Below, piece by piece: positions 3,161 through 59,858 of a stretch of 64,000 nucleotides of DNA. This DNA is from an uncultured Lacinutrix sp. (lineage in GTDB: Bacteria; Bacteroidota; Bacteroidia; Flavobacteriales; Flavobacteriaceae), in assembly GCF_947500325.1 (NCBI RefSeq), contig NZ_CANMRQ010000002.1, positions 1 to 64,000 on the forward strand, read 5' to 3'. The notes beneath the pieces are model-generated. The model ran no database searches. It was not told where the DNA came from and saw nothing but the letters and a program-made list of their open reading frames with translations. The position numbers were made by a program, and so were the translations under genes. Position 1 is the stretch's first letter; every line of letters starts with the position of its first letter.

Positions 3161-5308
3161 TTATTTATTATTGAAAGGGATGGTTATTTTGAAAGTAGCA
3201 CCAGTTGGCTTGAATTCATTCTCAACAACTTCAATATCCCCATTTAATGCTTTAATTTGTTTTTCTACAACGTACAGTCCAACTCCAGCACCACCCTGTT
3301 CAGCAGTACGGGTATTGTAAAGTCCAAATATCCAATCCTTATCATTCATATCAAGACCATAACCATTATCAGAAAAATAAATCACAAAATTGTTAGTATT
3401 TAAATAGCCTGTACACTTTATTTTTTTGTTTTTAGTATTTGTTAAAGCTTTGACAGAGTTAGAAACTAGGTTTTGAAAAATATCTTGAAAAGCTTTTTTA
3501 TTAGTTTCAATTACAAAATCATCTTTAAGACCAAGTTCTAACTCGATACCTTCTTTTCTAAAAACGGAACTATATTGTTTTTTTAATAAATCACTAATTA
3601 ATGTTGAAACATTAAATTCTTCGAATGAACTTTCATCAACATTAGCAAAACTCAACATAAAATCGGTAACAGATAAAAGTGTATCCATTTCGTTATAAAT
3701 CATAACAGCATACTCTTTAAAGAATTTATCAAACTTTGGATTAGGGTAATTCAACTTAAAAAACTCGCCTAGATGCTTTACTTTTGCGATAGAAGTTCTA
3801 ACTGCATGAGTAATAAGTGATGCAAATTCTTGCATTGAAACTATGCTGTAAAGAATCTTTTCTTTTCTTTCTACTTCTTTTTGATATTTTTTTTGCTCAG
3901 AAATCCCTTTACTGATTACCCTGTGTAACCCTTTAGCTTGTTCTTTTAATTTAGCTATATTTTTTTTTGCATCTGGGTTAGTCTTACTTAATTCTTTTTC
4001 AATTTTTGATAATTCTTTCTCAAAGGTTTTTACATCTGAACCAGCATCAATTAATTTGTTTTCAACAACACTTCTTTTAGCAACTCTTGAATATTTTTTT
4101 TGCTCTTTAAATGCATCCAATTGCTGAAGGATAAATTCTTTTAAGGTTTTATACTCTTTGGTATCAATAAAATCTTGCCTATTTGTTGCATCAATAATTT
4201 GAGGGTTATCTTTTTTTGTAATATCCAAAACACCTATAACTTCTCTAATACCGACATGGTCAAAAGCACCGCTATATCTACTCTTATCTATTCCAAGAAT
4301 ATCTCTCTTTTTTTCTACATGATCTTCGTATTCCGCAAAGGGTGTAGTTATAACACCATCTCTATATATTTTTATCCCATCAATTCTTGTATCGTCATTT
4401 TTATATGCATTTCGGTATTTCCTTTTTGCTCCTTCATCAAAATAATAGATTCGCATTTTGACAGGTCCAAAATTTTGTTTATCAATATGCATTTTGTATA
4501 AGTCTCCTTTTTTTGAATCAAAAGCTAAGGTTTCTTGCATACCCTTATCTGAATCATATTTTATTTCTGCATAATGAGAATAGTATTTTACCGCATCAGG
4601 TTTAACAGGTTTATTTTGGTAAGAAATAAATTCATTAGAATCTATCTTGATTTCAAATGGTGGATTTACAGGATAAAAGGGAGATATTAATTTTGACAAT
4701 TCTTTATAAAGTCTTTCTATATCATTTACTGACCATTTATCAAATATTTTTGAGATAATAATTTTTGTTCCTTTTTTATCTACTTCCGCAGGCTCATAGC
4801 TATATTTATTTTTAACTTCAGTAAATAAAGATAATTGACCTTCTACAGCATTGTTGGATAAGTTTTCATATTCATCCCAATTGATATTAACGCAAAGCCA
4901 ATTTTTATCTTTTTTTTCTTTAGTTTTTATTTTGACTCTTGCCCCAAGTTTATCAACAGCAAATCTTCCAACACCTTTTTCTCCTACAAACTTCCGATTA
5001 TAGGGTGCATCAGAATATAATTTTACTCTTTTACTATTTGTTCCAACAACCATCCATTTATCTCTAATATCAGCAAATGACATTCCAGTACCATTATCGC
5101 TAATTATTATTTCACTTTTTTCAGATATTGTAGATACATTGTTAAATGTTACTGTTACTTCTTCAGCGTTTGCGTCATAACAATTTTTAACTAATTCAAA
5201 TATTGCAGTTACTCTATCAGTAATTAATTCACGTCCTAGCAGTCTAAATGCATTTACATCAACTCTCCACTGTAATGATTGGTCATCTATGTTGTTAGTT
5301 TGATTCAA
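3161..5308 (-). CDS. Dual GHKL ATPase: Hsp90/MORC-like domain plus histidine kinase
   Basis: 715 residues with two ATPases. The N-terminal Hsp90/MutL/MORC-like GHKL domain shows the N box (E38, N42, D45 in ELVKNCYDANA), DNGTGM at 71-76 and GEKGVGRF at 109-116, then a transducer-like region. A coiled coil (~400-490) leads to an H box with H501 in SLITHAVRTS, then a full HATPase_c: N box at 607-622, DNGYG at 647-651, F box FGLYNT, GGAGVGL at 672. No membrane segment, so it is cytosolic. The start is TTG, overlapping the methyltransferase gene by 14 bp; no ATG fits. Inferred role: an ATP-driven sensor phosphorylating the adjacent receiver. Confidence 0.8.
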   Translation of the reverse strand: MNQTNNIDDQSLQWRVDVNAFRLLGRELITDRVTAIFELVKNCYDANAEEVTVTFNNVSTISEKSEIIISDNGTGMSFADIRDKWMVVGTNSKRVKLYSDAPYNRKFVGEKGVGRFAVDKLGARVKIKTKEKKDKNWLCVNINWDEYENLSNNAVEGQLSLFTEVKNKYSYEPAEVDKKGTKIIISKIFDKWSVNDIERLYKELSKLISPFYPVNPPFEIKIDSNEFISYQNKPVKPDAVKYYSHYAEIKYDSDKGMQETLAFDSKKGDLYKMHIDKQNFGPVKMRIYYFDEGAKRKYRNAYKNDDTRIDGIKIYRDGVITTPFAEYEDHVEKKRDILGIDKSRYSGAFDHVGIREVIGVLDITKKDNPQIIDATNRQDFIDTKEYKTLKEFILQQLDAFKEQKKYSRVAKRSVVENKLIDAGSDVKTFEKELSKIEKELSKTNPDAKKNIAKLKEQAKGLHRVISKGISEQKKYQKEVERKEKILYSIVSMQEFASLITHAVRTSIAKVKHLGEFFKLNYPNPKFDKFFKEYAVMIYNEMDTLLSVTDFMLSFANVDESSFEEFNVSTLISDLLKKQYSSVFRKEGIELELGLKDDFVIETNKKAFQDIFQNLVSNSVKALTNTKNKKIKCTGYLNTNNFVIYFSDNGYGLDMNDKDWIFGLYNTRTAEQGGAGVGLYVVEKQIKALNGDIEVVENEFKPTGATFKITIPFNNK

Positions 5309-6377
5309 GTTCTTTTATATGGTTCTTTATACTTTTTGCTACAACAACTCCCAATCCAACAGGTACAGCATTACCAATTTGTCTAGCAATTACATTATTA
5401 GATACTTCTTTTTTGGGGTCTACAAACTTATAATTGTTTGGAAAACTTTGTATGAGTGCTGCCTCTCTCAATGTTATTGCTCTATCTTGTTCTGGATGAC
5501 CAAAACGACCATTACTTAATCCAATACAGTAGGTAGTCATTGTTGGAGCAACATCATCCCATTTCATTCTTCCGTATACACTTTTAAAATTCTTACCACT
5601 ATCTTTTTTATGGCACTCTAACCATAAACTTTCATCCCAATCTTGCCAAGTACCACCTTGTTTACTTGCTTGAATTCTTTTTTTATTTAATGGCGTTAGT
5701 TTTCTAGCAACATGAATACTATCTTTCGGGTGCGCAATACCATCCTCTACTGGAGGAAGGTGTCCAATAGCATCTTTTACTGTTACATAATTATCTTTTT
5801 TGATAGTTTTCTCTATTAACTTTACCTCTCCATGCTTTGACCCAAACAAAATCAATCTTTTTCTTCTTTGTGGTACACCATAGTCCTGTGCATTAACTAT
5901 ATGATAAGTAACAAAATAATTCTTGTCTTTTAATCTTTTTACAAAATCTTTAAAAACCTTTCCTTTATCAAAAGTTAATAAAAGAGGAACGTTTTCCATT
6001 GAAATAATTTCTGGCTCAACCTCATCAATTAAATTAGCGAAAGAATATAGAAGTTTCCATTTTTCGTTTTTTAACTTTAATTTGTCTTTTGTATTCTTTC
6101 CTCCTTTTTGATTATAAATAGAAAAAGGCTGGCAAGGTGCACACCCAACTAGTATCTTTCTTTTACCTTCAGTATATTTAGATACTAATTCCTCACTAGT
6201 TAATGTAGTAATGTCTTCGTGAAAAAATTTAGATTTATTATTTTTTTCAAAAGCATATTTACAAGTTTCATCAAAATCAATTCCTGCGTCGACTTTGAAT
6301 TTTTCTTTAATGAATCCATGAGTTAGACCTCCAATTCCACAGAATAAATCTACTACTGAAAAATCATTTACATTCAC
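5295..6377 (-). CDS. DNA (cytosine-5-)-methyltransferase
   Basis: 360 residues. All main C5-methyltransferase motifs are visible in order: I (DLFCGIGGLTHGF, residues 10-22), IV (GCAPCQPF, nucleophile C82), VI (SMENVP), VIII (QRRKRLILFGS) and X (RQIGNAVPVG), with a target-recognition region between VIII and X. Length is normal for the family, so it is probably active. The specificity cannot be read. It starts with GTG; no in-frame ATG is available nearby. It is the first gene of the operon that ends in the CHAT protease, and no restriction endonuclease is encoded beside it. It could mark self DNA for the downstream sensor. Confidence 0.92.
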   Translation of the reverse strand: MNVNDFSVVDLFCGIGGLTHGFIKEKFKVDAGIDFDETCKYAFEKNNKSKFFHEDITTLTSEELVSKYTEGKRKILVGCAPCQPFSIYNQKGGKNTKDKLKLKNEKWKLLYSFANLIDEVEPEIISMENVPLLLTFDKGKVFKDFVKRLKDKNYFVTYHIVNAQDYGVPQRRKRLILFGSKHGEVKLIEKTIKKDNYVTVKDAIGHLPPVEDGIAHPKDSIHVARKLTPLNKKRIQASKQGGTWQDWDESLWLECHKKDSGKNFKSVYGRMKWDDVAPTMTTYCIGLSNGRFGHPEQDRAITLREAALIQSFPNNYKFVDPKKEVSNNVIARQIGNAVPVGLGVVVAKSIKNHIKELESN

Positions 6378-6756: not shown

Positions 6757-7653
6757 TTAAGAAATAGGATGCAAAGTATCAATAACCTCCTGTAGACTTT
6801 CAAGGTCATCTTGAACATAACGTTCTGTTGAAGAAATATAACGATGTCCAGCCATATACTGCACTTCTCGTATGTTGTGGTACTGCAACCAATACGTAAT
6901 TACAGACGCACGAATCTGCTTGGTATCTTTTACATTATGGTTAATTCTGCGTAGTTTTTTGAAAAGCCAGTAAGTAACAGCAAACCTATCGCTATTTTGC
7001 GGAATAAAAGCCTCGCTGTGGCATCCAATTGAGTTTTGTATAGCTTCCCTGCTAACATTTATATATTCCGCCAAAGAAAGGATTTGTGGCGATTTAATTT
7101 CCAGTTCACGGGAATTGGTTTTTCGAGTAGATGGCACATAGATTTTCCCACGTTCCAAGTTGATATGTTCCACTTTTAATGTCTTAAGTGCAGTAGCGTT
7201 TAAGCCTTGATACACCATCATTCCAGTTATCACTTTATCACGCATAGCAACGTGAGGACTGCTTGGTAATTCGATATTTCGTGTTGGGTAGGAATAGAAC
7301 AAATCTTCTAGTTCCTCAAACTCTAAAAGATTATGATTGAGCGTGCGTTTAACACCACGTATATTCATACTCTCCATAGGGTTATCACCTCGATAATTTT
7401 CATCAACCAAATAATTAAAGTAAATCTTTAATGCACCGATTTGATGTCTTACTGTACTTTTAGAAGGCATTTTTCCATTACGAGTTCGCTGTAACTTTTT
7501 TGCATATTCGAGACAAGATTTGTAATCAATAGTTTCAGCTTCATAACCTTTAGAATCGCACCACTCGATAAATCGAGACTTGGCAATTAAATAACTATTA
7601 ATTGTCGTCTTGGCATAATCCTGTTCTCTTAAGTATTGGTCGTAGTGTTTCAT
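6757..7653 (-). CDS. Tyrosine recombinase-like protein lacking Arg I (element A)
   Basis: 298 residues with an N-terminal SAM-like core-binding domain and a C-terminal catalytic-fold domain. The usual G-L-R-x-S-E-L motif is G-L-N-A-T-A-L-K-T-L, so catalytic Arg I is Asn. HxLR is K-Q-I-R, while G-H-R-Y and the terminal Tyr in S-T-E-R-Y-V remain. The homologue in element B has the same replacement. It overlaps the complete recombinase gene by 4 bp. Inferred role: a structural or regulatory partner in a two-recombinase complex rather than an independent enzyme. Confidence 0.75.
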   Translation of the reverse strand: MKHYDQYLREQDYAKTTINSYLIAKSRFIEWCDSKGYEAETIDYKSCLEYAKKLQRTRNGKMPSKSTVRHQIGALKIYFNYLVDENYRGDNPMESMNIRGVKRTLNHNLLEFEELEDLFYSYPTRNIELPSSPHVAMRDKVITGMMVYQGLNATALKTLKVEHINLERGKIYVPSTRKTNSRELEIKSPQILSLAEYINVSREAIQNSIGCHSEAFIPQNSDRFAVTYWLFKKLRRINHNVKDTKQIRASVITYWLQYHNIREVQYMAGHRYISSTERYVQDDLESLQEVIDTLHPIS

Positions 7654-8624
7654 TGGTTCATTGATTTAACGAGATGAGTATAAATCTGGGTCGACTCCAT
7701 CGAAGAGTGGCCGAGGAATTGACTGATAGATTTCATCGGCACATTATTCTGTAACAAATGTGTTGCTATGCTATGGCGTAGTGTATGTAAAGTAATATGT
7801 TTACCCTGTATCGTTTCGTCTTCTGTAGCTTCTATAATTGCCTTTAAACGATTAGCAATAGACATATCGTTGATGCGTTTTCCGAATTGTGATAATAACA
7901 ATGCATCCGTTTGGTAGTTACCTAAAAACTCCGGTCTTCCTTCATATAGATACTCTTCGAGTAGTTGAAGATTGTATTTGTTGATTGGCACAAAGCGTTC
8001 CTTATAATTCTTCCCTTTACGCACATAAATACGTTGTTTCTCAAACAAAATATCTTCTGTATTGATATGTACTATTTCATTACGACGTAGACCGCAACTG
8101 TAAGCCAACACTAAAATGGCACGATCACGCATCTGAAAATGTTCGCTCATGTGAGATACTGCACAGGCTTCAAAAAGTAGCTTCATTTCGTCTTGAGTTA
8201 AGATGATCTTATCTGTAGTATGGTATTCTATTTTCTCTCCACGTAAGTGAACACCAAATTTGATATTGGCATTGTGTTCTTTTAAGTAGGTAAGAAATTT
8301 TTTAAGTGCTTGTTGATGCTTGTTTAAAAATGCTTTTGATAATCCACCATCACGCCTTTGGTTTGTTCGTCCTGCCAGTTCTTTGTAATAGTCTTGAATT
8401 AACTTAGTTGTTATTTTTGTGATATCGGTGTGCCCGCGGCACTCCAAGAAATGAAAAAACTCCCGAAGATGATTCGGAAGATTATAAACGGTAGATTCAG
8501 CGTAGCCAAGCACATCCAACCAGTTCTTATACGAAGCTAGTAACTCGATAAATGCTTGATTTTTAAGGACTAATTTTTTCATACCTTTTATATTTTTGAC
8601 TTTTCGTGGCGAACCCATCGCCAT
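7650..8624 (-). CDS. Tyrosine recombinase, catalytically complete (element A)
   Basis: 324 residues. Catalytic motifs are present: Arg I in CGLRRNE, H-T-L-R-H, L-G-H-S-S and nucleophile Tyr in TQIYTH. It strand-exchanges DNA at the element's attachment sites (family role). The first ATG is chosen because homology with the element B protein begins before the MKKL methionine at residue 15. The first codons (M-G-S-P) are written by a TGGCGAACC repeat, so part of the repeat cluster upstream overlaps the gene start. Confidence 0.88.
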   Translation of the reverse strand: MAMGSPRKVKNIKGMKKLVLKNQAFIELLASYKNWLDVLGYAESTVYNLPNHLREFFHFLECRGHTDITKITTKLIQDYYKELAGRTNQRRDGGLSKAFLNKHQQALKKFLTYLKEHNANIKFGVHLRGEKIEYHTTDKIILTQDEMKLLFEACAVSHMSEHFQMRDRAILVLAYSCGLRRNEIVHINTEDILFEKQRIYVRKGKNYKERFVPINKYNLQLLEEYLYEGRPEFLGNYQTDALLLSQFGKRINDMSIANRLKAIIEATEDETIQGKHITLHTLRHSIATHLLQNNVPMKSISQFLGHSSMESTQIYTHLVKSMNQ

Positions 8625-10386: not shown

Positions 10387-10782
10387 ATGAGTGTTACACA
10401 GCAAATACTTTCGGCAAACTTGAAGGCAATTCGTAAGGAAAAGAAGATTTATCAAAAAGATATTGAAACTCGTACAGGGCTTTTAGCCAGCACCTACAGC
10501 CGAATTGAAAATATGGAAGTAGTGCCTAATTTGGCGAGTATCGAAAAGATAGCTGAAGCACTTGAAGTTTCCGTAGTAGAGTTATTTCAGTCTAGAGAGA
10601 TTACAGATAAGTCCATTGCTCAGAAATTAGAGATGGTGGATAAACTTTCAGAATACAACCGTAATGTATTTGAAGTGATGACTGATACCATTATCGAGAA
10701 GGACAAACTTGAGAAGCTACAAGAAGTTAAAAAGAAGAACCGTCTTGCTGAATTGGATAAAGCAAGAAAAAAATCTAGTTAA
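10387..10782 (+). CDS. XRE-family transcriptional regulator (element A)
   Basis: 131 residues with an N-terminal lambda-repressor-type HTH (residues ~8-62: L-K-A-I-R-K-E-K-K, S-T-Y-S-R-I-E-N) and a charged helical C-terminus likely used for dimerization. It is divergent from the ATPase/recombinase operon, so it probably controls excision genes and its own promoter. The element B homologue (48828-49217) keeps position, promoter and C-terminal sequence. Its 3' end overlaps the DUF262 gene tail to tail by 8 bp. Confidence 0.85.
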   Translation: MSVTQQILSANLKAIRKEKKIYQKDIETRTGLLASTYSRIENMEVVPNLASIEKIAEALEVSVVELFQSREITDKSIAQKLEMVDKLSEYNRNVFEVMTDTIIEKDKLEKLQEVKKKNRLAELDKARKKSS

Positions 10783-12577
10783 TATTTAATACTAACTTCA
10801 ATTGCTTTTTTAATAATTTTCTTCTCTTCTTATAGAATTTTTCAAAGTTTGCAAACTCTAAACTTGTATCTACTGGAATATAATTATCAATACAGAATTT
10901 ATCTCTATCAAGAATATCTTTTGAATTATCTAGCCAACTTAAAAAGTGTTCATCGTTTTTAGAATTATTTTTTTTAGATTCTAACAGTTGTAGATTTGGA
11001 AGACTATCCTTCATTGATTGCCAAGAAACCCATTTTGATTCTGAAATACTTTCTGCTCTTAATTTTGCATCTGTGAACCGAGATTCAGGATGAATATGAT
11101 CTTGTTGAAACTTCACCTCTCCGTATCTCAAATTAGGATATAAAAGTGACAACACAAAAAACGAACTTTGTCCCTTTCTATAACCTAGAAACTCTTCAAT
11201 ATCATCTTTGTTAATCTTTAAAGACTTATTAGCGGTTAGTTTTTGACCAGACAATAAATCAAATGAGAAGTTTATATTTTTCAACTTATAACTACCATCT
11301 ATATTCTTTTCCCTTAAAGCACTTCTAAAGCTAGTAATAACCTGATCTCCTTGACCTCCATAAACATTTTTCAATAAGGAATGTAATAGATACTTCTTGA
11401 TATTTTCAACGTCAGAACTATTCTCTTTGCCTCCTTTTATAAGATAGTAAGCAATAATTATAATTGAGTTTTGAGAAGCTAGTAAACCGCCATTAAATCC
11501 AAAACTCACCAATAAATCAACAGTTTTATTAAGAGCCTCTTTTATAGAGTTCCAATTGTTCTTTATCAATTGTACATTCTCAGATTTGAAAGAGTTTACC
11601 CTAAAAAGTACAGGTAAATCGGAAAGAACCAAACAGCACCTCATTAAAAAATCATTATTAAAATTAAACCCTTCACCTTTAGAGTTTAATTCGCTTAAAA
11701 ACTTCTCTATTTTATCTCTTCCATCTTCCCACGTTGCAACAATAGTTGAGAATAATAAATCTGTTTTTGACAAAACAGTACCTCCGCTATTTACCCTCAC
11801 AAAAATCTTTAATATATCATCTAATTGTGTTCTTCCTTCTTTAAAATAATTTATTATTTCGTCTTTATAAATTTTTTCATGAAGCTTGTTTAATGCCTTT
11901 TTTATGAATGTTTTTTTCGATTCAAAAATTTCTCTTATTTCATCATTTTCAATTTCTTTTTTTATAGCTTCATAATATGCATCAACTTCATTGTTTTCAC
12001 CCATAAGCATTATATCCTTAACATTAAACCAAAACTCATTTGATGATTGTTTATGTTTTTTATCAATATCTAAAAACAGAAATTGGAAATCTCTATCTTC
12101 ATCTATAACTGTAGTTTCAAAACCAAGAGATTCGTGTTGCTTTTGTACATACGGTAAAGTAAATAGATTTAAATGTAGTGTTGAATTAAAATAAGACCTA
12201 GGGTTATCCCAAGCTAAATATTTCTTCTTATCTGTATAAGTTCCTTGTAAAGCCAAATAGATGGAACTCAATCTTTGTTGACCATCTAAAACCCCAATTA
12301 TTTCATCTTTTAAAAAAGATGATTCAACTTTAGAATTATAAGGGTTTCGTATATCATATTTTTTCAAAAAATGATAAAACACATATTCATTAGCCTTAAC
12401 TCTAGGCAAGTGCCAAAAGAGAAATGTCCCAATGGGATAGTCTTTTATTAAAGAGTCAAAAAGTTGTTCTATTTGATATTTTCCCCAAACAAATTTTCTT
12501 TGTATTGCAGGTAAAAACATTTTGGAATTCTCTATATCCTGTATTACTTGATATATAGTAGTGGATTTATAACTCAT
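10775..12577 (-). CDS. DUF262/DUF1524 GmrSD-like restriction protein
   Basis: 600 residues. The N-terminal DUF262 has the signature L-P-x-I-Q-R-x-F-V-W (22-31), Y-P-I-G-T-F-L-F-W and V-L-D-G-Q-Q-R-L-S-S (ParB-like nucleotidase, DGQQR). The C-terminus has D-H-I-H-P and N-L-Q-L-L-E-S-K-K-N-N-S-K-N, the His-Me/HNH-like DUF1524 pattern. Such fused GmrSD-type proteins are type IV restriction enzymes acting on modified DNA and are common anti-phage cargo. It follows an XRE gene by 2 bp in the same direction, so that regulator likely controls it. The matching slot in element B holds different genes. Confidence 0.85.
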   Translation of the reverse strand: MSYKSTTIYQVIQDIENSKMFLPAIQRKFVWGKYQIEQLFDSLIKDYPIGTFLFWHLPRVKANEYVFYHFLKKYDIRNPYNSKVESSFLKDEIIGVLDGQQRLSSIYLALQGTYTDKKKYLAWDNPRSYFNSTLHLNLFTLPYVQKQHESLGFETTVIDEDRDFQFLFLDIDKKHKQSSNEFWFNVKDIMLMGENNEVDAYYEAIKKEIENDEIREIFESKKTFIKKALNKLHEKIYKDEIINYFKEGRTQLDDILKIFVRVNSGGTVLSKTDLLFSTIVATWEDGRDKIEKFLSELNSKGEGFNFNNDFLMRCCLVLSDLPVLFRVNSFKSENVQLIKNNWNSIKEALNKTVDLLVSFGFNGGLLASQNSIIIIAYYLIKGGKENSSDVENIKKYLLHSLLKNVYGGQGDQVITSFRSALREKNIDGSYKLKNINFSFDLLSGQKLTANKSLKINKDDIEEFLGYRKGQSSFFVLSLLYPNLRYGEVKFQQDHIHPESRFTDAKLRAESISESKWVSWQSMKDSLPNLQLLESKKNNSKNDEHFLSWLDNSKDILDRDKFCIDNYIPVDTSLEFANFEKFYKKRRKLLKKQLKLVLNIN

Positions 12578-12954: not shown

Positions 12955-13470
12955 ATGAAAAAACTACTTGTACTGTGCTTTCTAACAGCATTAACACTAA
13001 CGGCTTGTTCTGAGTCAAAAATCAGCAAAGAAGAAGCTTTGACGATTATTAAGCAGGAATTTAAAAAGGACTGTACACAAAGGCTAAGCGATGCCTATTA
13101 CAAAAATGACAGGAACTATAATTCTATTGTTAAGATGGTCAAAGATCTTGAAAAACAAGGTTATTTGAGAGTTAAACAATATGGATATGGTGTTGAATAC
13201 TTTCCCACCGAGAAAGCAAAAAGTTATAGGGTAAACGGAAAAACATATCGAGTAGCCACAAGTAGTGTGCAAGATATTGTTGCCATAGCCCATAACGAAG
13301 ATGGAACAGCTACAGTTCGATTTAGTTATAAATATGAAAACCTTCCATTGTTCCAAATTAGAAAGTCAAGCTCGTATTTTAATAAGACTAATAAGAAAGA
13401 TTGTAATATGGAAATACAAGAAGGAGAAGTTGTCTTTAAGAAATTTGATACAGGTTGGAAGATACAGTAA
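12955..13470 (+). CDS. Lipoprotein of unknown function (element A)
   Basis: 171 residues with a type II signal peptide and lipobox LTAC (Cys18). The mature part begins S-E-S-K-I-S-K-E-E-A-L-x-I-I-K and ends with a D-T-G-W-K-I strand; both ends match the element B homologue (50959-51483). Expected location is the envelope, anchored by lipid. It sits directly before the oriT-like structure in A. It may serve surface exclusion or entry protection, but this is a guess from position only. Confidence 0.65.
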   Translation: MKKLLVLCFLTALTLTACSESKISKEEALTIIKQEFKKDCTQRLSDAYYKNDRNYNSIVKMVKDLEKQGYLRVKQYGYGVEYFPTEKAKSYRVNGKTYRVATSSVQDIVAIAHNEDGTATVRFSYKYENLPLFQIRKSSSYFNKTNKKDCNMEIQEGEVVFKKFDTGWKIQ

Positions 13471-13735: not shown

Positions 13736-14056
13736 TTAACGCTCACGATCAAATCCTCTACCTTTGGAGCGTCTATTTCTCAAATTTCGCACTTGAGATA
13801 GTCGTTTGTTTCTTTCAATATTTTGGTCAAGTAATTGTAGTTTTTCCATCGGATAACCGAGTGTTTTAATACGGTATTTTCTACTTTTTTTAATACCTAA
13901 TTGGCTTCCACGTTTGTAGAGTTCATGCCCTTTTTCTTTTAAGAGTTGTATGAAATTTTTTGATGATGAAGCCTTACTGTAGATTTCTGCAAGGTCTAAT
14001 TGCAGTTGCTGTTTTTCGGATAGCTTTCCTGTTCTTAATTGGAGTTGGTATTCCAC
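13736..14056 (-). CDS. Relaxase C-terminal part (second frame, element A)
   Basis: 106 residues from a GTG that is probably not a real start. The frame is open upstream to the A9 run, and the unlabelled residues there (K-D-V-E-Y-Q-L-Q-L-R) still align with element B (K-D-A-E-L-Q-M-H-L-R). It contains Y-S-K-A-S-S and a K-T-L-G-Y core and ends in a basic Arg/Lys-rich tail. It most likely is the C-terminal domain of the relaxase, produced by a -1 shift from the preceding frame. Confidence 0.7.
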   Translation of the reverse strand: MEYQLQLRTGKLSEKQQLQLDLAEIYSKASSSKNFIQLLKEKGHELYKRGSQLGIKKSRKYRIKTLGYPMEKLQLLDQNIERNKRLSQVRNLRNRRSKGRGFDRER

Positions 14057-14061
14057 ATCTT

Positions 14062-14643
14062 TTAGAAGCGATGGTTCTTTTTTTTTGAATGATTGACTCT
14101 GCTATGCTCAAGCTTTAGGTACTTTTCTTGGTAGCGTTCCATAGTTTGCTTCAGCTCACGGAACTGATTCTTAGACAAGCGTTTTACTTTTCCGCCAAGT
14201 TCTACGGCAGATACAATTACATGAATATGTAGATGTTCTCTATTTCTATGCATAGAAGCTACTACCAGTGAATTTGGACTACGCTCTTTAGCGTAGGTTC
14301 TAGCCACATCGAGCATAGCCTCCCTGGACAGATTTTTAGAATCGTTTGTATGGAAACTAATGATTTCGTGATACGCCCTGTTGCCGTTTTTATGCGGAAT
14401 TAACCGCTTATCGTTATTAGTTTCGAACTGAGTTAGCATATTGTCGATACGAGCCTCCAAAACGGCTGTTTCAAGCATTGAATTTCCTTTAGATTGCTCT
14501 AGTTCCTTGTGATACTTTCTATCGCCACGAATGGCTCTGCTTAATACAAAACCTGAATCTGTCAGATCGTGTCCTACAAGAATATACCGTAGGACATTAG
14601 ATAGATTGGCTTTACTTTTTATGGACTTACTTTTGATAATCAC
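14062..14643 (-). CDS. MobA/VirD2-type relaxase, N-terminal catalytic part (element A)
   Basis: 193 residues. It begins M-I-I-K-S-K-S, the start typical of Relaxase/MobA (PF03432). The three-His metal motif is H-L-H-I-H-V-I-V-S near residue 145, and a GNRAYHEIISFHTND strand precedes it. It nicks oriT and pilots the strand during transfer (family role). The frame stops just after a 9-A run, and homologous sequence continues in the -1 frame, so the full enzyme is probably ~300 residues. It lies 3 bp downstream of the MobC-like gene. Confidence 0.85.
   Translation of the reverse strand: MIIKSKSIKSKANLSNVLRYILVGHDLTDSGFVLSRAIRGDRKYHKELEQSKGNSMLETAVLEARIDNMLTQFETNNDKRLIPHKNGNRAYHEIISFHTNDSKNLSREAMLDVARTYAKERSPNSLVVASMHRNREHLHIHVIVSAVELGGKVKRLSKNQFRELKQTMERYQEKYLKLEHSRVNHSKKKNHRF
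14078..14086 (-). other. Poly-A slippery site in the relaxase gene, element A
   Basis: Nine A residues on the coding strand, codons TCA-AAA-AAA-AAG, include the dnaX-like heptamer A-AAA-AAG. A -1 shift (or one extra A in the transcript) joins the N-terminal frame to the downstream frame. The equivalent run in element B is 10 A residues at 57468-57477 with the same frame relation. Confidence 0.65.
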
Positions 14644-14646
14644 AGC

Positions 14647-15078
14647 TTATGTTATCAATTTTGAAAATTCTAGTTCTAGTGATTCAATACGCTCAAGTGT
14701 TTCTTCTACCTCTGTAGATTCCCCATTGCGCTCGAGCACTTCTTCTGTAAGTGCAATCAATTGCATCAGTTTTTGATGGATGACAACTAATTGTTCATTG
14801 TCAAAATCTGATTTAGAGCCACCGTCTAATGCGTTGAATACAGCATCGTATAGGTATTTCGAGACCGTTCGTGTTCCCTTTTCTTGTTTGATGCGTCCAA
14901 GCGTTTTAACATCAAAACCAAGCCTAAACTCTTTACGAGTTTTTCTACGTTTGCGGTTGTATTCTCTGTGCCAAAGCTTATAGTATTGTTTTTTGGCTTC
15001 GATAATTTCTGCTTTGGTTGGATTGGTATTTGCTTCAAATACCATATCCATATACTCATAAATATTACTGTACTTCAT
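14647..15078 (-). CDS. MobC-like relaxosome accessory protein (element A)
   Basis: 143 residues from the ATG at 15078, chosen because it aligns with the start of the element B homologue (I-x-x-Y-x-D-M-x-F) and overlaps the coupling-protein gene by 14 bp, exactly as in B. It has a basic region R-K-R-R-K-T-R-K and a helix-rich C-terminus. Position between coupling protein and relaxase suggests an oriT-binding accessory factor. Sequence is divergent from named MobC families. Confidence 0.6.
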   Translation of the reverse strand: MKYSNIYEYMDMVFEANTNPTKAEIIEAKKQYYKLWHREYNRKRRKTRKEFRLGFDVKTLGRIKQEKGTRTVSKYLYDAVFNALDGGSKSDFDNEQLVVIHQKLMQLIALTEEVLERNGESTEVEETLERIESLELEFSKLIT

Positions 15079-16528
15079 TGTCTTGTGGTCTTTGATTCTT
15101 ATCATCTCTGTATTTCTCAAAATCGATGTACTGTGCTGTATATTCAGCATTCAAAATTTCTGCATTCTCTGGTGCTTGTAATTCCATATACTTAACCAAT
15201 TTAGATTGCTTGTAGAATGGAATAGTTTTGCACTTTAGCGGCTGCATCCCACTTGGTACGATAATGATTTCGTCTTTAGACATCGTGCGCACTTCGTCTG
15301 GAGTCATAAGTGTTCGAATACGCTTACTACCATTTTCATCTTGATATTCATAAACACCTAGTGTGTCTGAGATAGCACGACTCTCATCTGAAAGTCCAGT
15401 GAAGTACACTTTCACATTGGCATTGTTTAAAATCGTCTTACCGTTGTGAACGCCGTAGTTGTTGTACAACTGATTTTCGGATTGAATCACACCCATAATT
15501 GGCATAGAGAACTTACGAGAATTTGATATTACGTTTGCAAGGTTGGGTAGATGTAAGCTTGATAGCTCTTCCAAAATTACAAACACATCATTATCGTTTT
15601 TACTCGGTAAGCTTCTAAATACGTGTGAGAAATATTGCTCCCAAAAGATGCTTAAAATAGTGCTGTAATACTGCATGTCTGACAATGGACAGCGCAAGAA
15701 CACAGCTACCTTTTCTTTGCGTAATTGTTCGAAATTGAATGTATCAACAGAAGTTAAATCACATAGCGTTTCGTCTTCGCCTAAAAAGGCTAAAGATGCT
15801 TGTGCTGAACTAATGATACTCGCACGAGTATTTTCAGAATTACCCATCAGCGACAAAAACTTACGCCATAAATGTTTAGGCGTAGTCGCTGCAAAATAAC
15901 TATCAATCACCTCAGGTTCTCCAGCTAATGTTTCTAGTATTCTATAGACATTAGCTAGGTTCTGATGAATACGTGGCTCTGTAGCACGTAAGTGATGAAT
16001 GCAAAGTCCGATAAGCTCGGTTGCTTTAAGTGTCCAGAAATCCGAATCTTTGCTAGTAGCTCGTACTAACATACTCGCTACTTTGTTTACATCCGCATTG
16101 GTCTGAATCCTATGAAGCGGATTGTAATACAACGAATTGGTTTTGTCTCCAAAGTTGATTTCTTCCACTTTATAACCACGATGTAATAAGAAATTACGTG
16201 TTTTGCTTAACTCCCCTGAAGGATCGTTAATGAGCATAGAACCACCATTTTTATCATTTCCAATATTGAAAATAGTTGGATAAATAATGGTCGTTGTTTT
16301 GCCGCCACCACTAGGCGAAACAATCACCATATTGTTACGTGACTGCTGTACTGATAAATGCTTTTTCCCTGTAACGGAAAAGCCTTTATATCTTCCAGAA
16401 ATCAGTTTTGATGCTGATGTAAAACCCGCCTTGAGGCGGTGGTCTTTACCAGCGATTTTATCTAAAATGCCGTCTAAAAACTCTCCCGTTCTTTCCATAG
16501 CTAGTATGCCAAAATCCTGTATATTCAT
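15065..16528 (-). CDS. VirD4/TraG-type coupling ATPase (element A)
   Basis: 487 residues. Walker A is in SPSGGGKTTTI near residue 78, followed by L-I-N-D-P-S-G-E-L; Walker B-like region is V-F-V-I-L-E-E-L-S-S. A TraM-recognition-like C-terminal motif (GVIQSENQLYNNYG) is present. It links the relaxosome to a type IV secretion channel (family role). The N-terminus lacks clear TM helices, and a small membrane protein encoded just upstream (stop overlapping this ATG) could supply the anchor. Confidence 0.85.
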   Translation of the reverse strand: MNIQDFGILAMERTGEFLDGILDKIAGKDHRLKAGFTSASKLISGRYKGFSVTGKKHLSVQQSRNNMVIVSPSGGGKTTTIIYPTIFNIGNDKNGGSMLINDPSGELSKTRNFLLHRGYKVEEINFGDKTNSLYYNPLHRIQTNADVNKVASMLVRATSKDSDFWTLKATELIGLCIHHLRATEPRIHQNLANVYRILETLAGEPEVIDSYFAATTPKHLWRKFLSLMGNSENTRASIISSAQASLAFLGEDETLCDLTSVDTFNFEQLRKEKVAVFLRCPLSDMQYYSTILSIFWEQYFSHVFRSLPSKNDNDVFVILEELSSLHLPNLANVISNSRKFSMPIMGVIQSENQLYNNYGVHNGKTILNNANVKVYFTGLSDESRAISDTLGVYEYQDENGSKRIRTLMTPDEVRTMSKDEIIIVPSGMQPLKCKTIPFYKQSKLVKYMELQAPENAEILNAEYTAQYIDFEKYRDDKNQRPQDNEVQ

Positions 16529-45184: not shown

Positions 45185-46090
45185 TTAGATACTATTAATC
45201 GGATGCATTGTCTCGATAATCTCCTGCAAACTTTCCAAATCATCCTGAACATACCTTTCTGTAGAAGAAATATAACGATGCCCTGCCATATACTGAACCT
45301 CACGAATGTTATGGTGACTAAGCCAATTAGTTATCACAGAAGCTCTAATCTGCTTCATATCTTTTACGTTATGGTTAATACGTTTAAGGTTTTTAAATAA
45401 GTATCTAGAAATAATATCAAACCGATCTGAATTTAGTGGAAATAAAGCCTCTGTATGGCTTTGAATTGCATCTTGCAGTAATTCCCTGTCCTTCTCAAGA
45501 TAGTGAAGCAGTGGCACGATTTGCAACGATTTAAGCTCTAATGTTCGAGCATTGGTCTTACGAGTTGATGGCACATAAATTTTTCCGTTATCGATATCAA
45601 TATGTTCCAGTTTTAATGTTTTGAGTGCTGTAGTATTTAAGCCTTGATAGACCATAAATCCTGTAATCACTTTATTACGCATAGCTACCGATGGACAATT
45701 AGGCAATTCAATGTTTTCAGTTTTATAGCTGTAATATAAATCCTCAAGTTCATTTTGATCTAAAAGATTATGATTAAGCGTACGTTTAACGCCACGAATA
45801 TTAATACTCTCCATTGGATTCGTACTTCTTCTATTATCATCAATAAGAAAATGGAATAGTATTTTCAATGCGCCAACTTGGTGCTTGATAGTACTTTTAG
45901 ATAGTGACTTCCCTTTTCGTGGTTGCTGTATTTTCTTTACATACTCCAAACACAATTTGTAATCAATCGTTTCTAAATCATAATCTTTAGCATGGCACCA
46001 GTTAGAGAATAAGCTAGCAGAACGCAAGTAGGATACTACTGTTGTTTTAGAATACCCTTGAGTAAATAAATAATTTTCAAACTGTTCCAT
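45185..46090 (-). CDS. Tyrosine recombinase-like protein lacking Arg I (element B)
   Basis: 301 residues from ATG at 46090 (TTG two codons earlier). Very similar to the element A homologue. G-L-N-T-T-A-L-K-T-L replaces G-L-R-x-S-E-L, so Arg I is again Asn; K-Q-I-R, G-H-R-Y and the S-T-E-R-Y tyrosine are kept. Overlaps the complete recombinase gene by 14 bp. Retention of the defect in both copies argues for a conserved non-catalytic role. Confidence 0.75.
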   Translation of the reverse strand: MEQFENYLFTQGYSKTTVVSYLRSASLFSNWCHAKDYDLETIDYKLCLEYVKKIQQPRKGKSLSKSTIKHQVGALKILFHFLIDDNRRSTNPMESINIRGVKRTLNHNLLDQNELEDLYYSYKTENIELPNCPSVAMRNKVITGFMVYQGLNTTALKTLKLEHIDIDNGKIYVPSTRKTNARTLELKSLQIVPLLHYLEKDRELLQDAIQSHTEALFPLNSDRFDIISRYLFKNLKRINHNVKDMKQIRASVITNWLSHHNIREVQYMAGHRYISSTERYVQDDLESLQEIIETMHPINSI

Positions 46091-47051
46091 GTTCAATGTC
46101 TTTAACTATGTGCGTATAGATTTGCGTACTCTCTAAAGACGAATGCCCTAGAAAAGTACTAATAGATTTCATTGGTACTTTGTTTTGAAGTAGGTGCGTA
46201 GCAATACTATGACGAAGCGTATGTAGTGTAATATTCTTTTCTATAATCGTTTCATTTTCTGTTGCATCAATAATAACGGTTAATCGGTCTGCCATCGTTT
46301 TATCATTAATACGTTTTCCAAAACTTGAAAGCAGTAGTGCATCGGTTTGGTAACGCTTTATAAACTCTGGTCGAGCTTCATATAAGTAATCTTCTAAGAT
46401 TTGCAGATTGTATTTGTTTATTGGAATAAATCGTTCCTTGTAATTCTTACCACGGCGCACATAGATACGCTGTTTTTCAAATAAGATATCTGAAGTATCA
46501 AAATGAACGGCTTCATTTCGGCGAAGTCCGCAGCTATAGAGTAAAACCAATATGGCTTTATCACGCATTCTAAAATGTTCACTCATGTGAGATAGAGTGC
46601 AAGCTTCAAATAATGCTTTGATTTCGTATTGCGTTAAAATCACTTTCTGATTTTGATGATTGATTTTTTCGCCTTTTAAATGCACGCCAAATTTAATATT
46701 GGCATTATGTTCTTTTAGATAATCCAAGAACTTCTTTAAGGCTTGTTGATGTTTGTTTAAAAAGGCTTTTGATAATCCGCCACCACGTCTGCTATTAGCA
46801 CGATTAGATAAATCCTCATAATACTCTTTTACAATTTGAGTAGTGATGCGTTCAATGCCTGTATGCCCCTTCTTTTCTAAATAGTAAAAGAACTCTTTTA
46901 AATGATGAGGTAGATTGTAAACGGTAGTAGAAGCATAACCAAGTATATCTAACCAGTCTTTGTATGACTTTAGAATGGTAATAAATGACTCGTTTTGTAG
47001 CTTTAATTTCTTCATCCCTTTTACGTTTTTAGCTTTTGTGGCGAGTATCAT
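46077..47051 (-). CDS. Tyrosine recombinase, catalytically complete (element B)
   Basis: 324 residues. Arg I in C-G-L-R-R-N-E, H-T-L-R-H, L-G-H-S-S and the Y of T-Q-I-Y-T-H are intact. Homologous over its whole length with the element A enzyme. The start at 47051 lies beside a TGGCGAGTA repeat, the degenerate equivalent of the repeat in A. Confidence 0.88.
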   Translation of the reverse strand: MILATKAKNVKGMKKLKLQNESFITILKSYKDWLDILGYASTTVYNLPHHLKEFFYYLEKKGHTGIERITTQIVKEYYEDLSNRANSRRGGGLSKAFLNKHQQALKKFLDYLKEHNANIKFGVHLKGEKINHQNQKVILTQYEIKALFEACTLSHMSEHFRMRDKAILVLLYSCGLRRNEAVHFDTSDILFEKQRIYVRRGKNYKERFIPINKYNLQILEDYLYEARPEFIKRYQTDALLLSSFGKRINDKTMADRLTVIIDATENETIIEKNITLHTLRHSIATHLLQNKVPMKSISTFLGHSSLESTQIYTHIVKDIEHGTV

Positions 47052-50958: not shown

Positions 50959-51483
50959 ATGAAAAAAACTCTTCTTCTAATAGTAGTAGGCATCATCTTT
51001 TCCTGCACTTCCAAAACGACCTTATCCGAGTCTGAAGCACTAGCAATTTTGAAACAAGATTATAAAGGCGATTGTTACAGCTTCGTTTTTAATAAAATGA
51101 ATGATTGGAAATCCAATAAGAATTATGTGGATGCTTTTTATGAATTAGAATCAAAGAAACTTGTAACCATTTCTAAAAGAGAAACTTTTATTCATGGCAA
51201 ATCTACGGGATATATTCTTTCATGGCAACCTACAGAAGAAGGCCTAAAGTATAAAAGCAAAAAAAGTAAGCAGTATAAGTTAACCGAGCTAATCGTTAAA
51301 GATATTGTAGGTATTTCTATTAACCAAGAAGAGAAAACAGCAGTCGTTCGATTTTCCTATGATGTAGTTTATACTCCTTTTAAGAAAGTACAGAATAGGT
51401 CTTATGGTAATTGTAAAAGTTCTACTGGAGAATACGAATTAGAATTTATACTTTATGATACTGGTTGGAAGATTAAGAAGTAA
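50959..51483 (+). CDS. Lipoprotein of unknown function (element B)
   Basis: 174 residues; lipobox I-I-F-S-C, then S-E-S-E-A-L-A-I-L-K-Q-D-Y and a final Y-D-T-G-W-K-I strand, matching the element A lipoprotein at both ends. Middle region D-I-V-G-I-S-I-N-Q-E-E-K-T-A-V-V-R-F-S-Y is also shared in pattern. Presumably lipid-anchored in the envelope. Its presence in both elements beside different cargo marks it as a core gene. Confidence 0.65.
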   Translation: MKKTLLLIVVGIIFSCTSKTTLSESEALAILKQDYKGDCYSFVFNKMNDWKSNKNYVDAFYELESKKLVTISKRETFIHGKSTGYILSWQPTEEGLKYKSKKSKQYKLTELIVKDIVGISINQEEKTAVVRFSYDVVYTPFKKVQNRSYGNCKSSTGEYELEFILYDTGWKIKK

Positions 51484-57120: not shown

Positions 57121-57447
57121 TCACCTTGTTCTTTCACGTCCTTTAGACTTGTCTTTATTCTGCTGTTGATGCTCTCGTATGCTTTTAAGCATATTTAATC
57201 GCTTGTTTTGAGTGATATTTTTATCTAGTTCGCGTAATATATTTTGATCGTAGCCAAGTGTTTTAAAACGAAATTTACGCTTTAGTTTTACACCAACGAT
57301 TTTATTATTTCGAGTGTAGAGTTCGATTCTCTCCGACTTTAATCGTTTATAAAAATCAGCTTCAGAAGTTGCTTTGGAATACACTTTTTCTAATGTAGAA
57401 ATAAGCTCTTGTTTATTAGATACTGCACCACGAAGATGCATTTGCAA
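57121..57447 (-). CDS. Relaxase C-terminal part (second frame, element B)
   Basis: 108 residues from TTG, not a convincing start. The frame is open back to the 10-A run and keeps homology with A there (L-T-K-D-A-E-L-Q-M-H-L-R). Contains V-Y-S-K-A-T-S-E-A-D-F-Y, F-R-F-K-T-L-G-Y-D and an Arg/Lys-rich end. Best read as the C-terminal part of the relaxase joined by a -1 shift. Confidence 0.7.
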   Translation of the reverse strand: MQMHLRGAVSNKQELISTLEKVYSKATSEADFYKRLKSERIELYTRNNKIVGVKLKRKFRFKTLGYDQNILRELDKNITQNKRLNMLKSIREHQQQNKDKSKGRERTR

Positions 57448-57461
57448 TTCAGCATCTTTAG

Positions 57462-57986
57462 TTAAAATTTTTTTTTTGAAGGATTGTGATTAATGGCAGA
57501 TTTCGAGAGTTCTGGAAAATGTTTTTCTTGAAACTGTTCCATAGGAAGCTTAACCTTGTTTTTAAAATCATCACGAGAAATACGAATCGACTTCCCTGTT
57601 TTATATTCCACTCCAGAAAGCAGTATATGAAGATGGACATGGTCTTTTTCTTTTTTATGAGCAGTAACTAGTGCTACTGATAAAGGCGAGCGTAGTTTTA
57701 AATATTCTCGTGCTATTTTTTTGAGCTTATCATTGGTTAGGTCTTTGGCATCATCCGAATGGAAAGACAGGATTTCCATATAGAGTTTTACATTGTTTTT
57801 TCTTGGATTTATTCGGTGCTGCTCATTAGCATAAAACTGTTTGGAAATCTCATTATTGGATAGATTCTTTCCTTTGATAAAACGAGTCAGCACAAAACTA
57901 TCGTCCTGTTCAGCTTCACGTAAGACATAATCAACTACTGTTTTAAAGCTTTTGTTATGCTTATAGCTTTTGGACTTGATTATCAT
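57462..57986 (-). CDS. MobA/VirD2-type relaxase, N-terminal catalytic part (element B)
   Basis: 174 residues; M-I-I-K-S-K-S start, Y-M-E-I-L-S-F-H-S-D-D strand, three-His motif H-V-H-L-H-I-L-L-S near 130. Overlaps the MobC-like gene by 4 bp. Stops just past a 10-A run, as in element A at the same point of the protein. Nicks oriT to start transfer (family role). Confidence 0.85.
   Translation of the reverse strand: MIIKSKSYKHNKSFKTVVDYVLREAEQDDSFVLTRFIKGKNLSNNEISKQFYANEQHRINPRKNNVKLYMEILSFHSDDAKDLTNDKLKKIAREYLKLRSPLSVALVTAHKKEKDHVHLHILLSGVEYKTGKSIRISRDDFKNKVKLPMEQFQEKHFPELSKSAINHNPSKKKF
57468..57477 (-). other. Poly-A slippery site in the relaxase gene, element B
   Basis: Ten A residues on the coding strand (TCA-AAA-AAA-AAA-TTT-TAA). 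Adding one A, or a -1 shift, opens the frame into the C-terminal part. Same frame relation as at 14078-14086. Confidence 0.65.
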
Positions 57987-58420
57987 AAGGACTCCTGGAT
58001 TACGGTTTCTAATGTCCCTATATGACTTTCTAACTGCTCAATTTTATCAGTATCAATATGCTCGTAATCCAAAAGTTCACGTAAATATTCACTGATTAAA
58101 AACAGTTGCTGTTCAATTAGGGCTGTATTAACTCTTGGCACTAAATCGGTGTGATTATATAAATGCGCAACAACCAAACCATGTATGTACTTTGAAATAC
58201 TCTGTCCTTTTTCAAGTTTAGATTTAAGTACGGTTACATTCTGTTTGGAAAATGAGATTTGAAATATTGGAAAAGCTTTTCGTTTTCTCCGCTTCAAATC
58301 TGTGTTATAGGCGCGCCAATACTCCTTTTTTGCATTTATAATGGTGTCCTCAGAAGGCGTTATTCCATCAAAAAGCATATCTAAATAATCATGTATGGAT
58401 GTAAAATTAATTGGTCTCAT
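57983..58420 (-). CDS. MobC-like relaxosome accessory protein (element B)
   Basis: 145 residues. N-terminal I-H-D-Y-L-D-M-L-F and basic R-R-K-R-K-A-F match the A homologue; the middle has I-S-K-Y-I-H-G-L-V-V-A-H-L. Helical, acidic C-terminus. Overlaps both neighbours (14 bp and 4 bp). Expected to bind oriT with the relaxase. Confidence 0.6.
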   Translation of the reverse strand: MRPINFTSIHDYLDMLFDGITPSEDTIINAKKEYWRAYNTDLKRRKRKAFPIFQISFSKQNVTVLKSKLEKGQSISKYIHGLVVAHLYNHTDLVPRVNTALIEQQLFLISEYLRELLDYEHIDTDKIEQLESHIGTLETVIQESL

Positions 58421-59858
58421 CGGCTATCACGTTTGGAAATAATTCTTCTAGTGGTAATAATTTAATAGCTGTAGAACCTATATGGTTAGCTTCATACGGA
58501 GGTAATTCTGAGAGCTCTCGTAAAGCTCTAACTTTAAAATAAGGCTTAACACGAGCAAAAATGGTACGCATTCCTGATACTAATATTAAAGCTCTATTTG
58601 TAGGAAGTGACATAATCTCATCGGCTGTTAAAACAGCACGAGATTTCAATCTGTCTTTGTCCTTTTTGTCTTCAAATTCATAACGTCCCAAAGTGCATTC
58701 GAGTGCCGTAGCGGTATTTAAATCTGCCGAGAGATATACTTTGGTTCGTAAGTTTGAAATAATGGCATCGGCTCGTTTACCATATTTTGCAGTAAGCTGT
58801 GCCTGTGCATTTTGGCAAACACACATAATGGCTCCTCGATACTTACGAATGTTAGATGCTATAATATCCAAAGAGCCAATAGATAAAATTGGTGTTTCAT
58901 CTAAATGAAAATACACATCGTACATTTGTTTTGTCGGTAATTCTTCAAAAAAAGATTCGAAATATTGTGATAGGAAAATACTTGTGATTTTAGAATAGTA
59001 TCTCATTTTTGCGGTACTGCTATGTAAATACAAAGCAGTAAGTTCATTTCTAATACTATCAAAATCGCCGATAGTATCTGAAGAAGTAATCTCAGCAATA
59101 TTCTCATCCAATGCAAAAATTTGTATCGAAGCCTGAGCAGTCGATACAATACTGGAAAATGTGTTATCGGATTGTGAAGTAATAGAGGTGTATTTTACAA
59201 ATAACTCTTCATCAGCGTACTTTGAAAACAAATGGTCTATCAAAATTTTATGTTTAACAGATTGCATAATATCCAATAAATGTGCAACATTTGTAAGGGT
59301 ATGAAACTGCTTATCTTGAGTCTTTAAAATCGAAATAAGTACATACAACACTTCAATAGCTTTAGTATTCCAAAAAGAATCCGCATTATCTTCAGAGCCA
59401 ATGGTCACTAAATTGGTTGCTAGTTGTGTGATTTGACTCTTGGTATTAGCTCTAAGCATCGGATTAAATCGAAGCGACGTTTTAGGTGAAGAAAAATCTA
59501 GCTGCAAAATGCGATAATCTTTTTCTGCTAATGCGCCACTGGTTTTTTCAAATAGTTCTTTAGAGGGGTCATGCAATATTTGACTACCATTTACTGTGAG
59601 TACACTTCTAAGAACAACACCAGCGGTCTTGAATGATCCTGTTTCTCCATTAACAAGTACACCTTGCATGGAGAGTTTGGGCGAAATAGATTTACCGTTT
59701 AAGTTAAAGCCCTTATTCCTGCGAGATAGAATTTTGCTAGCTCGCATATACTGACCTTTAAGCCGATGTTTATTAGGGTCTAAATAGGCGACTAAATCTT
59801 CTAAGCCATCAACTAATAGTTCAAAAGCATTTTCAAACAGTGAGTATGTATTTTTCAT
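58407..59858 (-). CDS. VirD4/TraG-type coupling ATPase (element B)
   Basis: 483 residues. Walker A G-E-T-G-S-F-K-T near residue 75, I-L-H-D-P-S-K-E-L after it, Walker B-like Y-F-H-L-D-E-T-P, and C-Q-N-A-Q-A-Q-L-T-A-K-Y-G. Same architecture as the A protein but only distantly similar. A 47-residue membrane protein is encoded just upstream. Confidence 0.83.
   Translation of the reverse strand: MKNTYSLFENAFELLVDGLEDLVAYLDPNKHRLKGQYMRASKILSRRNKGFNLNGKSISPKLSMQGVLVNGETGSFKTAGVVLRSVLTVNGSQILHDPSKELFEKTSGALAEKDYRILQLDFSSPKTSLRFNPMLRANTKSQITQLATNLVTIGSEDNADSFWNTKAIEVLYVLISILKTQDKQFHTLTNVAHLLDIMQSVKHKILIDHLFSKYADEELFVKYTSITSQSDNTFSSIVSTAQASIQIFALDENIAEITSSDTIGDFDSIRNELTALYLHSSTAKMRYYSKITSIFLSQYFESFFEELPTKQMYDVYFHLDETPILSIGSLDIIASNIRKYRGAIMCVCQNAQAQLTAKYGKRADAIISNLRTKVYLSADLNTATALECTLGRYEFEDKKDKDRLKSRAVLTADEIMSLPTNRALILVSGMRTIFARVKPYFKVRALRELSELPPYEANHIGSTAIKLLPLEELFPNVIADETN

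Follow-up and report, generated by a model that had tools for sequence, protein, structure and literature searches.

The stretch of DNA analysed here (the window) comprises 64,000 nucleotides (nt), positions 1 to 64,000 of the forward strand of contig NZ_CANMRQ010000002.1 from an uncultured Lacinutrix sp. (assembly GCF_947500325.1), and carries two elements, A and B, each with a relaxase gene on the minus strand whose reading frame breaks at a run of adenines. Both copies lie on one contig, C2, of a 4.57 Mb genome. On the plus strand the runs are T9 at 14078-14086 and T10 at 57468-57477, which correspond to A9 and A10 in the genes. In element A, the 5' half of the relaxase (14062..14643, minus strand; 193 amino acids (aa), GTG start at 14643) encodes a MobA/VirD2-like nuclease domain (PF03432, E 4.3e-17); its zero frame reads the slippery run as A_AAA_AAG and stops at a TAA at 14064-14062, giving a protein that ends ...NHSKKKNHRF*. 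The -1 frame (13736..14101, minus strand) becomes open only 15 nt ahead of the run; it reads ...KKKEPSLLKDVEYQLQLR... as far as 13736; its post-run part encodes the relaxase C-terminal domain (C-half alignment A3). In element B, the 5' half (57462..57986, minus strand; 174 aa, ATG start at 57986; PF03432, E 1.2e-13) reads its slippery run as A_AAA_AAA and ends ...NPSKKKF*, with a stop that ends at 57462, and the -1 frame (57121..57489, minus strand) becomes open only 12 nt ahead of the run, reading KKKILTKDAELQMHLR... as far as 57121, its post-run part again encoding the C-terminal domain (alignment A3). An original prediction, made from the letters of the window, had stated that the two relaxase frames end just past A9/A10, that homology resumes in the -1 frame and that the A copy has A_AAA_AAG; all of this is borne out, and the heptamer stands in the zero frame.

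With 63.1 bits for A and 51.9 bits for B against a PF03432 cut-off of 24.6, both 5' halves are MobA/VirD2-like relaxases, and the same family is matched by all 35 fused relatives in alignment A2 (E 0.001). Residues H132, H139, H141 and Y20 are invariant in alignment A1 (12 rows) and in A2 (35 rows); we take them to be the three metal-binding histidines and the N-terminal tyrosine of such relaxases. The 5' half of A, searched alone, scored 34.9 bits against the 321-position NCBIfam model MobP1 (NF041450) and so missed its cut-off of 200 bits. The second halves of A and B, which are 45% identical over 102 residues, matched no Pfam model.

Relatives were collected with the 5' half of A or the 12-row alignment A1 as query. 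Matches were found in 9 of 395 genomes of the order (E 1e-15), 23 of 395 of the class (1e-20), 4 of 397 of the family (1e-18), 13 of 166 from the genus of genome G676 (1e-18) and 3 of 7 from the genus of G817 (1e-20); in the genus Lacinutrix, 1 of 13 genomes matched, namely the source genome itself (1e-20). In plasmid and phage collections tblastn found no match, and a scan of viral contigs gave no confirmed relative. After removal of 14 duplicates, 64 distinct loci were kept, and the second half was placed with a C-half profile. A locus was called fused if its frame continues more than 200 nt past the nuclease match, a definition under which the far relative L071 counts as fused though no C-half match was found in it.

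The frame is broken in 16 of the 64 loci (14 genomes), and every break lies at a run of eight to ten adenines (A9 in 13 loci, A10 in two and A8 in one). The correction needed is -1 in 15 of them and +1 in one, L062. This sole +1 relaxase comes from the single-contig genome G1139 and has A10, versus A9 in its near fused sister L005 from Polaribacter. Among the 47 fused loci, 37 have no run of at least eight near the junction and 10 have one; the A8 of L047 lies some codons beyond the junction, which leaves nine fused loci with the run (L003-L008, L014, L034, L035). One further locus, L076, lacks the run, and an in-frame stop precedes its C motif; it was classed as broken without a run and looks decayed. 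L003, whose 5' half shares 81% identity with that of A, has A10 and is in frame, while A has A9 and is at -1, and genome G753 carries both L003 and a -1 locus with A9 (L033).

The run is the probable place of the shift. The interval within which the frame must change, from the last C-frame stop to the zero-frame stop, spans 19-79 nt, and in these intervals the A-run is the only homopolymer of at least four except for one TTTT in B. L058 and L065 have a C-frame stop immediately next to the run, and their C frame opens 2 nt into it, so that the shift must happen in the run there. Coding for three lysines (KKK) does not by itself explain the run: among open reading frames (ORFs) of the clade loci (see below) and the window (130,686 nt), 17 of 40 KKK sites have at least nine adenines, and since all 17 are the relaxase junction, none of the 23 KKK sites outside it does. 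Among sampled genes of the source genome the figure is 6 of 69, two of which are the relaxases, against 4 of 67 for the others. The codon before the run ends in A in nine of ten loci whose Lys codons give eight A's versus 2 of 13 in which they give nine; this hand tally, with L010 and L035 (two Lys codons) set aside, gives p 0.0006 by rows and 0.10 after collapse by hand to lineages and is suggestive only. In most loci the zero-frame stop falls closer to the run than is usual for the C half (mean P 0.24 in the 15 -1 loci); this test was given little weight, as the rows are related and the zero frame is stop-rich there. A count in which 10 of 11 lineages keep at least nine adenines was not relied on, since it is partly circular: the rows had been chosen for runs of at least eight.

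Both halves of the relaxase are under purifying selection in broken pairs. In particular, dN/dS (nonsynonymous over synonymous divergence) in the C half is 0.072/0.34 for L070/L072, 0.084/0.72 for L068/L024 and 0.22/1.92 for L068/L070, and the corresponding values for the 5' half are 0.062/0.49, 0.104/0.60 and 0.214/2.31 (16 pairs were computed, several of them saturated at synonymous sites). Three residues of the C half are invariant in all 48 broken and fused sequences.

A quick tree of the 64 rows gives a 27-member clade a Shimodaira-Hasegawa-like approximate likelihood ratio test (SH-aLRT) support of 97, and in a careful tree of these 27 plus four outgroup rows its support is 100/99. The clade contains 15 of the 16 broken loci, the nine fused loci that keep the run and three that lack it (L017, L018, L040), while far relatives such as L012 fall among the 64 and outside it. 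Within the clade, parsimony counts 8 frame changes versus 3 run changes; the A-run outlasts the reading frame. The remaining broken locus, L058, lies outside the clade beside fused relatives without a run. The positions of the long rows L040, L034, L010 and L065 are unsure.

The naturally fused homologue L003 was modelled from alignment A2 (35 fused sequences), with a mean predicted local distance difference test (pLDDT) score of 90 and a predicted template modelling (pTM) score of 0.65. In this model, residues 1-180 form the nuclease domain and 196-302 a second domain, whereas residues 181-200, which include KKK at 187-189, are of low confidence (block means 67 and 57); according to the model, the run codes for a linker that joins a complete relaxase nuclease domain to a conserved C-terminal one. 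MobM of pMV158 aligns with residues 1-192 (5n2q; Z 13.0, 152 residues, 3.0 Å), and the minimal relaxase domain of MobA from R1162 with residues 1-179 (2ns6; Z 12.6, 145 residues, 3.3 Å). From this layout and these matches, the short form would be the whole nuclease domain, to which the long form would add the C domain. As the PDB matches of the full model cover residues 1-192, they barely test the C domain; modelled alone, it has a pLDDT of 72, none of its 139 PDB matches at E 10 reaches E 0.001, and a profile search of PDB sequences yielded nothing better than E 0.2. In Pfam, two families were each weakly matched by 1 of the 48 C halves scanned, including TraI_middle (E 0.0041), which is a lead only.

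Judged from the sequences, the relaxase is probably one gene whose halves are joined at the conserved A9/A10 run by slippage of RNA polymerase, giving a short and a long form. RNA polymerase would slip on the run and produce mRNAs with one A more or fewer. From a -1 copy such as A or B, the unslipped mRNA would yield a short relaxase, consisting of the nuclease domain and a few further residues, and the slipped fraction the full-length relaxase with its C-terminal domain, whereas in relatives that are in frame in the DNA the run would lead mainly to the long protein, with some of the short one. Where relatives lack the run, presumably only the long form is made. The effect might be to limit full-length relaxase, to supply a working short form, or both. 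By analogy with insertion sequences, the simplest role would be a throttle on the full-length relaxase; the short form could also have a task of its own. We infer the occurrence of slippage, its transcriptional rather than ribosomal nature and its efficiency, and we favour slippage of RNA polymerase over -1 ribosomal shifting less firmly than the joining itself; both may act.

Several features point to the transcript. Frame states 0, -1 and +1 are all present with the run kept (nine in frame, 15 at -1, one at +1), and mixed direction among orthologues is, according to PMC3711429, a sign of transcriptional realignment; the mixed states point weakly the same way here. Runs are about nine or longer at the junction in 15 of the 16 broken loci (A9-A10), and runs of at least nine are found in each of the three codon phases. 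Long coding A-runs are scarce in the source genome (347 ORFs, 390,555 nt): A7 occurs 280 times vs. 261.5 expected, A8 73 vs. 83.6, A9 15 vs. 36.5 and A10 once vs. 10.1, with longer runs absent vs. about 11 expected; the sole A10 is that of relaxase B. Under-representation of coding A9 is used as evidence for slippage in PMC1088944.

Other observations weigh against transcriptional slippage or limit it. The +1 direction comes from one locus, L062, which could be a recent mutation, and with 1 of 16 broken loci needing +1, the relaxases show less mixture of directions than the transcriptional cases already known. The run of L065 is only A8. In 390 kb of sampled coding DNA there are 14 other A9 runs, and A9 is thus tolerated; T8 is depleted as well (24 vs. 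36.7 expected), and the depletion of long runs, tested in one genome, may also reflect hypermutability of the DNA. As 37 of the 64 relatives have no run near the junction and the tail of the short form is not conserved, a short form is not always needed. The downstream RNA fold is fairly stable in L033 (z -2.85), and L072 has z -1.97; individual loci such as L033 may thus carry a stimulatory element. Finally, A_AAA_AAG is in frame in 10 of the 15 -1 loci, and ARAGORN called only tRNA-Lys(TTT), with two genes, as lysine tRNA in the source genome, both of which suit ribosomal shifting too.

The foremost alternative is programmed -1 ribosomal frameshifting at A_AAA_AAG or A_AAA_AAA, which would join the halves as in E. 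coli dnaX or IS3-family elements and which we hold to be unlikely though by no means negligible. A_AAA_AAR stands in the zero frame in all 15 -1 loci, the zero-frame stop follows 2-40 nt past the run in the broken loci, and the preponderance of -1 (15 of 16) and the single type of lysine tRNA fit such a shift. In E. coli, where one lysine tRNA serves both codons, A_AAA_AAG is much more shift-prone than other heptamers tried (PMC5009743). However, the direction is not uniform, given the +1 locus and the nine in-frame relatives that keep the run, and the kept runs stand in all three codon phases. Moreover, a heptamer would call for fewer adenines than are present, at least nine being kept in 15 of the 16 loci; no shared downstream RNA fold was found in the 15 -1 loci, which have a mean z of about -0.6 and a single value below -2, and no Shine-Dalgarno-like stretch was seen by eye in the 25 nt upstream.

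Phase variation, in which a hypermutable DNA run would switch full-length relaxase on and off between cells, appears improbable. Close relatives do differ in the expected manner, L001 with A9 (-1) from L003 with A10 (0), and L005 with A9 (0) from L062 with A10 (+1). Nevertheless, the off states, expected to be split between the two directions, number 15 at -1 to 1 at +1 (sign test p 0.0005, with kinship ignored), and four loci of one clade (L024, L068, L070, L072) keep A9 and the -1 frame across a C-half dS of up to about 1.9.

Two separate, translationally coupled genes, the second half having its own start, are more improbable still. The zero-frame stop is indeed close to the run, and 10 of the 16 broken loci have some C-frame ATG, GTG or TTG within 36 nt past the run: an ATG at 6-29 nt in B, L013, L033, L058 and L062, and a GTG at 3 nt in L033 and L073. 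However, no second-half start codon is conserved among the 16 loci, and the first C-frame ATG, GTG or TTG lies as far as 180 nt past the run in L068, 240 nt in L070, 84 nt in L009 and 75 nt in L065. Homology of the C half starts at the run itself, and relatives have the two halves as one gene. The original prediction had the second halves begin only with GTG or TTG, which is right for the first start in A and incomplete for B, where an ATG lies 26 nt past the run besides the TTG at 20 nt. Simple decay or sequencing error at the homopolymer, a common site of indels and errors, can hardly be credited even though most loci come from draft genomes and some from metagenome-assembled ones, for the same break recurs in 16 loci of 14 genomes, five of them (L011, L024, L062, L070, L072) in four single-contig genomes, purifying selection acts on both halves in broken pairs, and the decayed-looking L076 has its in-frame stop elsewhere and no run. 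The earlier argument that two independent assemblies show the same break was mistaken, as A and B share one contig of one assembly; its place is taken by 14 further broken loci from 13 other genomes. Programmed joining of the halves at the A-run, which the original prediction had proposed without deciding between ribosome and transcript, is supported by this recurrence, by selection, by the lack of a conserved start and by L058 and L065.

A wider proposal, which we put forward tentatively as rather less than an even chance, is that the whole Bacteroidota relaxase family sets the proportion of nuclease-only to full-length protein by slippage at the kept A9/A10, whatever the frame in the DNA, so that transcriptional fidelity would throttle or tune horizontal transfer.

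The setting of the gene recurs as well. Elements A and B have a common gene order: a gene for a VirD4-like coupling protein, a small accessory gene and then the relaxase. In A, the accessory gene (14647..15150, minus strand; 167 aa, no Pfam match) lies just upstream of the relaxase and the coupling protein gene at 15065..16528 (minus strand; PF02534, E 6.5e-46), both of them recurrent neighbours; in B, the accessory gene (57983..58420, minus strand; 145 aa, no Pfam match), also a recurrent neighbour, is accompanied by the coupling protein gene at 58407..59858 (minus strand; PF02534, E 1.7e-43). Relatives of both neighbours were found at 19 of the 27 clade loci, of one at three and of neither at five (E 1e-4); the five (L024, L035, L068, L070, L072) form one subclade, and their flanks extend about 1.5 kb.

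Other genes of the window were noted in passing. Paired ORFs of about 300 aa lie near both relaxases (6757-8624 and 45185-47051), and three of the four, all but 45185-46096, were scanned and resemble tyrosine recombinases. Related lipoprotein-like genes occur in both elements (12955-13470 and 50959-51483; 32% identity, E 8e-20); a lipoprotein-like ORF has a weak Penicillinase_R match below cut-off. The segment 35749-39921 holds genes resembling a cyclic-oligonucleotide-based antiphage signalling system (CBASS), encoding two cyclase-like proteins and one E1-like protein, all below NCBIfam curated cut-offs. At 10775-12577, a GmrSD-N protein matches the PADLOC candidate defence family HEC-05 (E 6e-184). 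At 3161-6377, a cytosine methyltransferase adjoins a long protein with a restriction-enzyme-like N-terminal part and a histidine-kinase-like C-terminal part, both below cut-off. Scans of part of the window's ORFs against Pfam, NCBIfam or PADLOC gave no drug-resistance enzyme, and sensor-kinase models with resistance names score far below their cut-offs.

If the proposal is right, the key nicking enzyme of a mobile-element family would have its dose set by recoding, like transposases. Gene finders would then be likely to annotate such relaxases as split or truncated, and the elements could be undercounted or called defective. The natural -1, in-frame and +1 copies with one run would offer a ready comparison for why both forms are made.

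We know of no recoding in MobM of pMV158 or MobA of R1162. These relaxases (PDB 5n2q, 2ns6) share their nuclease-domain fold with the L003 model; unlike them, the relaxase described here has a C-terminal domain without a PDB match at the threshold given above. The type of recoding is known from transposases, dnaX and tssM, and the relaxase case was not met in the literature searched: the open-access full texts searched contained no report of relaxase recoding, a search whose scope did not extend to subscription papers or to the GeneTack cluster tables, whose clusters could include the family. A close parallel to the relaxase proposal is provided by tssM1 of Citrobacter rodentium and tssM3 of Yersinia, in which transcript slippage on poly-A gives a short and a long product; which of the two comes from slippage differs between species, the long one in one and the short one in another (PMC4256274). 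According to the same source, however, tssM encodes a secretion protein and its slippage was shown by experiment, whereas that of the relaxase is deduced from sequence. Likewise, dnaX has an A-run and long and short forms (tau and gamma), made by transcriptional slippage in Thermus and by ribosomal shifting on A_AAA_AAG in E. coli; in contrast to the relaxase, it is a chromosomal replication gene, and its recoding is described as experimentally shown (PMC5009743, PMC1088944). FseA of ICEMlSymR7A is also produced by frameshifting in an integrative conjugative element, which is proposed to damp noise in transfer control, but the shift is +1 and ribosomal and the product is an excision activator rather than a relaxase (PMC5009743). 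Transposases of insertion sequences are, like the relaxase, encoded by mobile DNA in two frames joined at an A-run, and the direction may vary among orthologues (PMC1088944, PMC3711429, PMC5009743); unlike in transposases, the first frame of the relaxase encodes the nuclease domain.
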